From the NCBI GenBank assembly GCA_021779755.1, contig JAJYAA010000002.1, positions 1 through 40,977 of the forward strand: a DNA stretch of 40,977 nt, in the 5' to 3' direction. Both the position numbers and the translations under genes were made by a program. This document shows, one piece after another, positions 19,500-23,784 of the stretch. Each line of letters opens with the position of its first letter. The stretch's first letter is position 1. Source of the stretch: a bacterium. GTDB taxonomy: Bacteria; Patescibacteriota; Saccharimonadia; Saccharimonadales; Saccharimonadaceae. The notes under the pieces were generated by a model. The model saw nothing but the letters and a program-made list of their open reading frames with translations. It did not search any database and was not told the origin of the DNA.

Positions 19500-19574
19500 T
19501 CCGACGTAGCTCAATGGTGGAGCAAGAAGCTGTTAACTTCGAGGTTGCTGGTTCGAGTCCAGCCGTCGGAGCCA
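19500..19574 (+). tRNA. tRNA-Asn (GTT), CCA encoded
   Basis: The 75-base gene folds as a normal tRNA. The acceptor strands are TCCGACG and CGTCGGA, the D arm is GCTC...GAGC, and the anticodon loop CTGTTAA carries GTT. The T arm is GCTGG-TTCGAGT-CCAGC, followed by discriminator G and an encoded CCA. It has its own promoter and terminator and lies at the left edge of the mobile region. Confidence 0.95.
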
Positions 19575-19636: not shown

Positions 19637-21229
19637 ATGAATCAGGTAAAGCGCAAGACTGTTAAGTCAGCGAACAACGCAGACTTTCAATTAATTACGG
19701 ATATGTCTAGTAAGGAGGCTAAAGCCTATTTTCGCGAGTCGAAGCACTACGTGAACTTTGATTTGCCGCCCTACTTTAAGTTTGACGATGTCATAGTCTA
19801 TGCTGCCTCAATGCTCATCAAGAAGAATCTGTCAGATGTGTGTATGAAGAATAATAAAGGGAAACCAATATTCCCTGGGAATTATGCCGATGTGAACTAT
19901 GTTGTCCTAAGTAACAAAGATGGCGGGTTCGCGTGGAGACCTCTTCAAATTATCCATCCCGTATTATATGTAGACCTTGTTAATATTATGACTGAACCAA
20001 AAGCCTGGTCTGCTATAACCAAGCTTTTTGAAGATAGGAGTAAATCGTCGGTTGAGTGTATCAGTATACCCCTTAAATCTAAGACTGGTGAGTCGAATAG
20101 GGCGGTTCAAGTGAGCAACTGGTGGGATAAGATAGAGCAGGAATCACTTCGAAAGGCGCTCGATTATAAATTTATGTTTCAGACGGACATAACTAATTGT
20201 TATGGTTCTATGTATACACACTCTCTTGAATGGGCGCTAGAACCGGGCGGAAGGTTAAAAGTCAAAGCCGATAGGTCGTCTGGAAAGCAAACAAAAAACC
20301 TCGGAACGGAAATTGATTTCAGACTAAGGCAGATGAACCAGAATCAGACTATAGGTATCCCACAAGGCTCCGCACTTATGGATTTTATAGCAGAGATAGT
20401 GCTAGCTGCCACGGACATCGAACTAACTGACAGGATAAACAATGAATTAAGTGACAAGGACTTCTCCATACTTCGTTATAGGGATGACTATAGAATTTTT
20501 GCTAATGAGTATCAGACCGGCCACGAAATTATGAAGATATTAAATAACGTTCTTTTCAAATGGAATATGAGCATGAATGCCGGCAAAACGCATGAAACAA
20601 GCAATATTATCGCTTCTTCTATTAAACCTGAAAAGATGGAGGAGATATACACGGGCTCTGTTCAGCAGTCATATCAAAAGGCCGCCATGCGTATATATAT
20701 GCTATCTGAAAAGTACCCAAATGCTGGTCTTGTTGCCAAGAACCTGACTGATTACTACGATAGAGTACAAAGGTTAAAGAAATCCGCGAGTATCGACTAC
20801 GAGGTTGTAGTGGCAATTGTCACCATGATTGCTTACTATAGCCCTCGCTATATTGCTCAGGTTGCTTCAATCATTACAACTCTTATAGAGAAGTCAGAGA
20901 AAGCCTTGGATAGAAAAAAGGTGATATCTAAGATTATCGAAAAGTTTAAGGACATACCAAACACTGAACTCATTGATGCCTGGTTGCAGCGCATAGCGGA
21001 TGCTGACGAGATAAGGGGCTATAGCTTTAATAGTATGATTACTAAGGTTGCTCTTGGCGACGAAGACAATTCTAAGTTGTGGAACTCTCAGTGGCTATAC
21101 AAAATCAACAGAAGTCTTATTGATAATGCTGACATATCAAATCTTTCACAAGAGATAGATCGGGGTACGTTTAATCCGATTGTTGGTCGCGAAGAGTTTG
21201 AGCTTTATAGGATAGGATATCCAGACTAG
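19637..21229 (+). CDS. Defence-type reverse transcriptase (UG/Abi group, DRT-like)
   Basis: The 530-residue protein has a compact RT domain at about residues 100-330 and an all-helical C-terminal domain (about 330-530). The palm motifs are visible: FQTDITNCYGSMYTHSLEWA (motif A, Asp184), IGIPQGSALMDFI (239-251), and ILRYRDDYRIF with the YxDD box as YRDD (281-284). MSMNAGKT (311-318) fits the next motif. No group II intron maturase domain, retron msr/msd region or CRISPR partner is present. From memory, the YTHSxxWA and YRDDYRIF wording is typical of the unknown-group/abortive-infection RTs, many of which act in antiphage defence (DRT systems); Drt4-like is my best guess but is not proven. It converges on the recombinase gene, overlapping it by four bases. 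Confidence 0.85.
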   Translation: MNQVKRKTVKSANNADFQLITDMSSKEAKAYFRESKHYVNFDLPPYFKFDDVIVYAASMLIKKNLSDVCMKNNKGKPIFPGNYADVNYVVLSNKDGGFAWRPLQIIHPVLYVDLVNIMTEPKAWSAITKLFEDRSKSSVECISIPLKSKTGESNRAVQVSNWWDKIEQESLRKALDYKFMFQTDITNCYGSMYTHSLEWALEPGGRLKVKADRSSGKQTKNLGTEIDFRLRQMNQNQTIGIPQGSALMDFIAEIVLAATDIELTDRINNELSDKDFSILRYRDDYRIFANEYQTGHEIMKILNNVLFKWNMSMNAGKTHETSNIIASSIKPEKMEEIYTGSVQQSYQKAAMRIYMLSEKYPNAGLVAKNLTDYYDRVQRLKKSASIDYEVVVAIVTMIAYYSPRYIAQVASIITTLIEKSEKALDRKKVISKIIEKFKDIPNTELIDAWLQRIADADEIRGYSFNSMITKVALGDEDNSKLWNSQWLYKINRSLIDNADISNLSQEIDRGTFNPIVGREEFELYRIGYPD

Positions 21230-22541: not shown

Positions 22542-23276
22542 CTATTTTGCTGACCAATCTCCAACGTAATCGCTTAAACCACTAGGTGTATACATGACGT
22601 CGCTAATAGTTGTGTCGCTTGGCATTTGGAACATCACGCATCCTGTGGAGCTTGACCCAGCTGTTAGAGATATCTCATCCCAGATTTTCGTGCCTGAATC
22701 ATCGTAATAAAAGTACGTACACTCGTTCGCAGGCATGCCTACGGGAGTGTAATACTTTTTATCTGATCCAGTAATTATAATGTCATTGGTAATAGGGTAC
22801 GTGTAGGTAGCGCCAGTATTGTTTTTAATGGTGAACTCCACAGCTAGAAGCCGATTCCCAGTATCGGGAGTTTTGTAGGCGCTAGTTACCGGATCGATTA
22901 CTCGAGTTAGTGTGACGGATAGTCCGCTATTGCCTCCAATCTTAAGTGTATCTTCAAACTTTCCGAAGGCATACTTCGACGCATCCACCTGTGCGCTGCT
23001 ATCCTTGGATTTGCTTTGTGATGTTGATGAACTGGTGTTTACGGCGCTATTAACCGCGGACGTAACGATTAAGATATATATCAATGAACAGACTGCGCTC
23101 GATATGACGGATACGATAAGCAGATGTGTGCCGAGTTTTTTATCTAATAGCCTATCCTTAGTGAGGTAAATAATACCGAGGATGATGCCAACAAATGGCA
23201 AGAGCACTGCGATTGTCGTGAATTGCCTATATGAGTCATGTTGGTTGGCTATAACTTCTTTTTTCTGTGTTGACAT
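22542..23276 (-). CDS. DUF4352 membrane protein
   Basis: A 244-residue protein with two N-terminal hydrophobic segments (about 21-38 and 50-74), a Ser/Thr/Lys linker and an outside beta-sandwich domain. LLAVEFTIKNNTGATYTY and SLTAGSSSTGCVMFQMP match the DUF4352/Telomere-protein-like fold, in which VxFxIxNxT is followed by a CxxxxxP strand. Such proteins sit on the surface of Gram-positives and their elements; the function is unknown, but surface exclusion or protein binding is possible. AAGGAT precedes the ATG. Upstream lies a long structured leader (23294-23430), so expression may be controlled at RNA level. Confidence 0.7.
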   Translation of the reverse strand: MSTQKKEVIANQHDSYRQFTTIAVLLPFVGIILGIIYLTKDRLLDKKLGTHLLIVSVISSAVCSLIYILIVTSAVNSAVNTSSSTSQSKSKDSSAQVDASKYAFGKFEDTLKIGGNSGLSVTLTRVIDPVTSAYKTPDTGNRLLAVEFTIKNNTGATYTYPITNDIIITGSDKKYYTPVGMPANECTYFYYDDSGTKIWDEISLTAGSSSTGCVMFQMPSDTTISDVMYTPSGLSDYVGDWSAK

Positions 23277-23293
23277 GGCACATCCTTCTTAAG

Positions 23294-23320
23294 GGCTGTC
23301 ATGACATAAAAAGGACAGCC
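23294..23320 (-). promoter_or_regulatory. Leader hairpin before the DUF4352 gene
   Basis: GGCTGTC pairs with GACAGCC (7 base pairs, 13-base loop) and ends just upstream of the AAGGAT site. It contains the palindrome TGTCATGACA (23297-23306). It could act as the output hairpin of the structured RNA next to it. Confidence 0.45.
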
Positions 23321-23329
23321 ACGTTGATT

Positions 23330-23430
23330 GTCTAGATCTTGAACAAGCCGTTAAGCCTATTCACGTAGCTGCCCATTTCTGCGGCTTAACTACGCTAGCG
23401 AATGCTTCGCGTCTTGTTCAAAATCTAGAC
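23330..23430 (-). ncRNA. Structured RNA candidate: long basal stem, pseudoknot and hairpin
   Basis: A 101-base non-coding segment closes on itself. The basal stem pairs 23330-23337 with 23423-23430 (8 bp) and 23339-23347 with 23413-23421 (9 bp) around one mismatch. Inside are an 8-bp helix GTTAAGCC/GGCTTAAC (23350-23357 with 23383-23390) and a 5-bp hairpin GCGAA-TGC-TTCGC (23398-23410). Four bases in the loop of the 8-bp helix, CGTA (23364-23367), pair with TACG (23391-23394) immediately after it, making an H-type pseudoknot with no gap. On the minus strand, TATACT (23437-23442) would start RNA near 23430, the exact base of the stem. It leads into the DUF4352 gene, so a riboswitch-like leader, a stand-alone RNA and a DNA recombination site are all possible. 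Confidence 0.6.
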
Positions 23431-23475
23431 TTTATAAGTATATCTGTAAGGGGTAGTAAAAGCTAGCAGACTCCG

Positions 23476-23784
23476 TCAATTGTAAAGATCTACGGGCTTT
23501 CGTGGCTTCAGGTAACTCCTTTCGTGAGCTTCGAGCCAGTAGGTTATCGCCTTCCATTCACCATCATTCACTTTTTGTATGAGTCTCGACTCGGCTATGT
23601 CACTGATTGCCGAACAACCCTCGTATTTTGCTCGGTCAACATTATACCTAAACGTATTATCATCCTTCATCCATCGGTAAAAGGTCGCCCTTGATATACC
23701 AGTCTTCTGGCAAGCTCGCTCAATGATTGGTACAATTTCAAGCTCCTCAAGAATTTTCTTTTTAGCTCGAACGTTTTTCGTCAT
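23476..23784 (-). CDS. Terminase small-subunit-like HTH protein
   Basis: A 102-residue protein. Residues about 15-45 form a helix-turn-helix, IIERACQKTGISRATFYRWM, followed by RAKYEGCSAISDIAESRL and a C-terminal Trp-containing helix (WKAITYWLEAHERSY). This layout resembles phage terminase small subunits of the phBC6A51 type, which bind DNA at packaging sites. No large terminase is present nearby, so here it is more likely a DNA-binding accessory of the element. It overlaps the end of the methyltransferase gene by 23 bases, suggesting coupling. Confidence 0.6.
   Translation of the reverse strand: MTKNVRAKKKILEELEIVPIIERACQKTGISRATFYRWMKDDNTFRYNVDRAKYEGCSAISDIAESRLIQKVNDGEWKAITYWLEAHERSYLKPRKPVDLYN

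Follow-up and report, generated by a model that had tools for sequence, protein, structure and literature searches.

In textbook antitermination it is the terminator's 5' arm that is captured. The trp-type and T-box attenuators and the Bacillus subtilis rplJL leader (PMC4538822) combine a 5' leader and an intrinsic terminator with a chain-wise exchange of pairing partners. In the HMP-PP/thiS riboswitch class (PMC6478431) the terminator is embedded in the aptamer, and structure and terminator are intertwined within a short leader. Other candidate RNAs from comparative genomics, such as LOOT and those of Fremin and Bhatt (2021, PMC8040213), are defined by covariation, with ligand and function unassigned. 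The leader RNA described here has likenesses to all three groups. Unlike in the trp-type, T-box and rplJL attenuators, its alternative helix is predicted to take the 3' arm of the terminator, by means of a loop in a long hairpin that has already formed, a layout that is unusual among attenuators; no leader peptide, T-box or known protein site was found in it, and its target genes are very diverse. Unlike the HMP-PP/thiS class, it has few conserved unpaired bases and no metabolic pathway common to its genes, and unlike that class, LOOT and other Rfam candidates it matches no Rfam family.

Rfam 15 was searched at gathering and permissive thresholds with the window (the whole stretch of 40,977 nucleotides that was analysed) and 20 homologous loci, and no family matched the leader. 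A sequence-only reading of the window had recognised no known class in this shape, and this agrees with Rfam, where permissive E-values still gave no credible match. The sole hit above the gathering score in the 20 loci is a LOOT RNA (RF03000, 74 bits) at L069:2743-2860 (+), about 1.1 kb downstream of a leader. No description of the family was found in the literature, and neither Saccharibacteria nor TM7 is named in the main text of PMC8040213, a catalogue of human-microbiome RNAs. The leader belongs to a large and apparently undescribed RNA family. We lean slightly towards regarding it as a new and widespread class of regulatory RNA in the Candidate Phyla Radiation, in which a bistable fold lets a hairpin loop capture the terminator 3' arm, and which would act as a portable module for surface, exported and accessory genes. 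If so, a portable control module serves bacteria whose lifestyle is one of attachment to other bacterial cells. To our knowledge, gene regulation in Patescibacteria is poorly understood.

Layout of the leader in the window

The genome to which the window belongs is Saccharibacteria-like, 689 kb in size and 84% complete. The leader, about 123 nt long, lies on the minus strand at 23430-23308, with an HTH/terminase-small-subunit-like gene (23476-23784) on one side and, on the other, the putatively regulated gene (22542-23276, minus strand), which encodes a 244-aa membrane protein with a DUF4352 domain (Pfam PF11611, E=2.1e-9). The sequence-only reading had proposed a structured leader at 23294-23442. 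Every piece that it named is found on the minus strand, and the fold (121 nt) is far more stable than those of shuffled sequences (z = -8.1, 0/200 shuffles). Its borders were slightly off, the functional leader being 23308-23430, because the X:T complementarity, the T5:T terminator hairpin and the U-run, all described below, had been overlooked.

All of the following features are on the minus strand. A -10 box, TATACT (23442-23437), read from the sequence and without a recognisable -35, stands six nt upstream of the stem-base G of P1, and 23430 is the probable transcription start. P1 consists of 18 continuous pairs (23430-23413/23347-23330), one of them G.U, with the 5' strand GUCUAGAUUUUGAACAAG (23413-23430) and the 3' strand CUUGUUCAAGAUCUAGAC (23330-23347); the basal stem had been recognised earlier, but as 17 pairs with an interruption that is not there. 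Within it lie a junction hairpin, GCGAA-GCA-UUCGC (23410-23398), seen both in the sequence and in alignment A3, which is the separate hairpin proposed before and varies in length among homologues, and the 8-bp helix P2 (23390-23383/23357-23350; GUUAAGCC at 23383-23390 and GGCUUAAC at 23350-23357). The P2 loop contains the segment X, GGGCAGCUACGU (23363-23374), whose 3' part pairs with the S1 strand CGUA (23391-23394) in the four-base pseudoknot CGUA/UACG (23394-23391/23367-23364). A GG separates the 3' strands of P2 and P1.

Beyond P1 follow T5, GACAAUCA (23325-23332), the 5' arm of the terminator hairpin, whose GAC is also the base of P1, and T, ACGUGGCUGUCC (23313-23324), the end of P1 and the start of T being separated by AAUCA. 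T lies directly upstream of the U-run UUUUU (23308-23312), an intrinsic-terminator signature that forms the 3' boundary of the leader, 31 nt from the DUF4352 start codon. In the window X and T are complementary over 12 bp, and the T5:T stem is weak (about -3.5 kcal/mol), with one A.C mismatch. The Shine-Dalgarno sequence AAGGA is read at 23283-23287. Before it a further hairpin, GGCUGUCC...GACAGCC (23294-23320), is present as previously described, and is a possible third partner for T. It is weakly conserved: 9% of homologues have at least 7 bp of it, compared with 1-3% for controls, and with so weak an enrichment it was rejected as a family-wide feature.

Distribution, promoters and downstream genes

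Altogether 139 distinct homologues, nearly all from the ultrasmall bacteria of the Patescibacteria, were gathered and examined. A DNA search of family genomes placed homologues upstream of differing genes. With a covariance model built from 17 sequences (R1), members were found in 19/380 genomes across the phylum, in several families. A second model, built from 51 sequences (R2), was positive in 124/394 genomes of the same Saccharibacteria family, with up to eight copies per genome, and gave additional members in other classes. About 31% of the genomes sampled in that family thus have this regulatory RNA, which is well defined and open to testing. When 84,980 species genomes were scanned for the exact pattern, matches appeared in Patescibacteria-type records (two labelled only "uncultured bacterium"), in a single MAG labelled actinobacterium (L023) and at one place in Mucilaginibacter (L038). 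The latter is taken as a chance match, since the covariance model gives no match there, and the former MAG is probably mis-binned, as its small TM2-like protein resembles that of a Saccharibacteria-family locus (L125).

One IMG/VR contig carries a leader copy (L044), and no match was found in known phages. Relatives of the serine recombinase encoded in the window are also found in 21 leader loci, suggesting that part of the RNA family rides on integrative elements. In the window, the recombinase gene is convergent with a gene for an AbiP2-group reverse transcriptase (19637-21229 (+); PADLOC AbiP2, E=1.5e-158), which follows tRNA-Asn (19500-19574). A decayed copy at L159:501-614 retains P1, P2 and X, has lost T and the U-run, and is followed by no convincing gene. 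A divergent copy before a resolvase gene (L090:2732-2851) has GGC at the P1 base and no T5 arm, and retains a 12-bp X:T and the U-run.

A -10 box with a match of at least 5/6 to TATAAT is present in 129/139 homologues, and in 124/139 it ends 6-7 nt upstream of the first G of P1. This recurrent spacing agrees with the earlier suggestion that a minus-strand -10-like box starts the RNA at the stem base. Extended -10 boxes of the TGnTATAAT type are frequent (TGn in 83/134), and no conserved -35 was found among the homologue promoters examined. Nearly all of the 139 members have a U-rich 3' end, and in 136/139 a same-strand ORF, by mechanical gene calling, starts 14-121 nt past the U-run, mostly with a Shine-Dalgarno sequence.

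The downstream proteins include the Pfam families DUF4352, DUF5067, DUF4190, TM2, bPH and OmpA, DNA methylases, resolvase and the type IV pilin-type N-terminus; many belong to no Pfam family, and they have no pathway in common. Transmembrane-like segments are predicted in 82% of downstream proteins of at least 100 aa, against 30% in a background of neighbouring ORFs from these loci (p=5e-20). Most of the putatively regulated genes encode envelope or exported proteins, and many are accessory; the leader flags a set of proteins that may matter for life on a host cell. Genes with a type IV pilin-type N-terminus stand behind leaders at L020:1581-2135 and L084:293-1483, and are of interest for host attachment.

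Covariation and exclusive pairings

Covariation was analysed in alignment A3 (51 members) and in A4, which holds 96 further rows, a few of them antisense or divergent. Double changes are seen at 16/18 positions of P1 in A3 and 17/18 in A4, at 8/8 positions of P2 in both, in accordance with the inner helix of the sequence-only reading, and at 7/12 (A3) and 10/13 (A4) positions of X:T, which is paired in 91-97% of cells (97% in A3). Taken together, P1, P2 and X:T are paired in 93.9% (A3) and 92.6% (A4) of cells, versus 71.8% and 65.4% after shuffling. The observed pairing was attained in 0/500 shuffles, a count that is not an exact probability, the members being related. Relatedness does not affect the slid-partner controls or the test of cis pairing within genomes. 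Model-made alignments are biased in favour of P1 and P2, whereas X:T and T5:T, as structures, gain nothing from this bias; X:T was encoded as structure in neither model. Homologues were also inspected for loss of the proposed pairings, and P1, P2 and X:T are kept across them.

T5:T forms in 98% of cells, and in the larger set 6/7 of its positions carry double changes. The X and T segments of homologues differ together, as in the X/T pairs GGGCAGCC/GGCUGUCC, GGGCAACCAUCC/GGGUGGUUGUCC, CGGCACCACGC/GCGUGGUGUCG and AAGCAGCCACGGAC/GUUCGUGGUUGCUU. An outer X:T pair, 85:202 (A4), occurs as G-C, C-G and U-A and lies outside T5:T; this compensatory variation indicates that X:T is selected on its own. 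In copies whose RNA starts with GCU in place of GUC, the partner of this triplet in the P1 3' strand has changed as well, and so has T in L163 and L179. The RNA start, T5 and T thus evolve in concert.

One X:T pair is a G.U wobble in 50/51 members of A3 (80:166) and in 84/96 of A4 (87:200), where A-U would be stronger. Such strand specificity bears on whether the locus is a chance palindrome or acts at the DNA level, for instance as a recombination site, as its strong palindrome close to the serine recombinase gene of the window's element might suggest. To that reading we give next to no probability, given the covariation with its G.U pair, the geometry of promoter and ORF, and the detection of a recombinase relative in only those 21 loci.

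T has two mutually exclusive partners, T5 in the terminator hairpin or X, and X likewise has two, T or S1, the latter replaced in some members by a local hairpin that sequesters X (e.g. AAUGG-GCAG-CCAUU). The whole exchange is S1-X-T-T5, and the S1:X pseudoknot makes up one of its arms. This pseudoknot is seen in the majority of members (62% of cells in one alignment), and the others hold X by a longer upstream pairing or by the local hairpin. In a crude run-length test, S1 pairings of at least 6 bp were found in 86/139 members, moderately above the 29% of the shuffled control. Because of this, the pseudoknot proposed from the sequence is present but is a common, not a universal, means of holding X.

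In 30 genomes with multiple copies, X pairs with its own T over 11.8 bp on average, against 7.9 bp with the T of sister copies (p=2e-17), which argues for action in cis; trans or shared pairing between copies was rejected on this comparison. A stand-alone, trans-acting small RNA of about 125 nt that lies upstream of genes by happenstance would account for the own promoter and terminator and for as many as eight copies in a genome. It is nevertheless very unlikely, as 136/139 copies lie 14-121 nt ahead of a same-strand start codon, mostly with a Shine-Dalgarno sequence, the downstream genes are strongly non-random, and X:T fits within and not across copies.

Outside the switching helices, conservation is confined to an AAA that precedes X and to a linker rich in A. 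Of the earlier suggestion of "a riboswitch or a regulatory RNA", a regulatory leader is supported by the conserved promoter, structure, U-run and downstream ORF; a strict ligand-binding riboswitch is not supported, so few unpaired bases being conserved. The leader position, the pseudoknot, the A-rich linker, a single fold over many genes and a near-balanced expression platform would all suit a small-molecule riboswitch. However, no aptamer core of conserved unpaired bases is seen, the downstream genes have no common pathway and no Rfam class matches. The scarcity of conserved unpaired bases in particular disfavours a classical small-molecule aptamer, and a riboswitch of this kind is rather improbable.

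The window copy and 69/139 members also contain an AUG, in the window within AAUGGGCAGC, from which a leader peptide (Met-Gly-Ser-His/Tyr) might be made in ribosome-mediated attenuation. This is hardly credible: the AUG is missing in half of the members, no Shine-Dalgarno sequence lies ahead of it, and frames and lengths are unconserved in the copies read. With no conserved translated upstream ORF, the MGSH/MGSY attenuator was rejected.

Attenuation model and its polarity

The leader is promoter-proximal, and has a T5:T hairpin with a U-run and a conserved, exclusive alternative in X:T, as expected of an attenuator. We judge, with a probability of roughly 0.6, that it is a cis-acting, bistable transcription attenuator. 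Transcription would begin at the first G of P1, and P1 and P2 would fold first, exposing X in the loop. Once T is transcribed, just ahead of the U-run, it could pair in either of two exclusive ways. As T5:T it would form an intrinsic terminator, in which hairpin and U-run stop transcription while X remains in the S1 pseudoknot or the local hairpin; as the 12-bp X:T helix it would exclude T5:T, and the polymerase would read through into the gene. Structure, covariation, promoter position, U-run and gene context are observed; termination at the leader and the identity of the ON state are inferred.

Between the two states ("X held plus terminator" and "X:T") the mean difference in predicted energy is 3.0 +/- 4.0 kcal/mol, and in 97/137 members the gap is no more than 5 kcal/mol. 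This balance is rough, as ViennaRNA cannot score pseudoknotted states jointly and pseudoknot entropies are left out. With states so nearly equal, a modest input could favour one over the other, be it temperature, an ion, a protein or the speed of cotranscriptional folding.

T5:T as terminator and X:T as read-through state is the favoured polarity. The opposite assignment is also possible: X:T likewise borders the U-run, and of the two helices it is the stronger (mean -19 to -22 versus -10.5 kcal/mol for T5:T), above all in the window. X takes the terminator 3' arm beside the U-run, and X:T could itself terminate. In the opposite direction, transcription would end at X:T, acting as a pseudoknotted terminator, while S1:X, together with P1 and T5, would withhold X and so permit read-through. 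Consistent with this, X:T stops exactly at the U-run, is strong in the window where T5:T is weak, and is retained in the second copy of L090, where T5 is absent; the non-universal S1 also counts against the favoured model. The opposite direction is nonetheless unlikely. T5:T, with its high pairing and compensatory changes of its own, is an ordinary local terminator hairpin, and the GAC common to P1 and T5 is maintained, which fits T5:T as the regulated structure.
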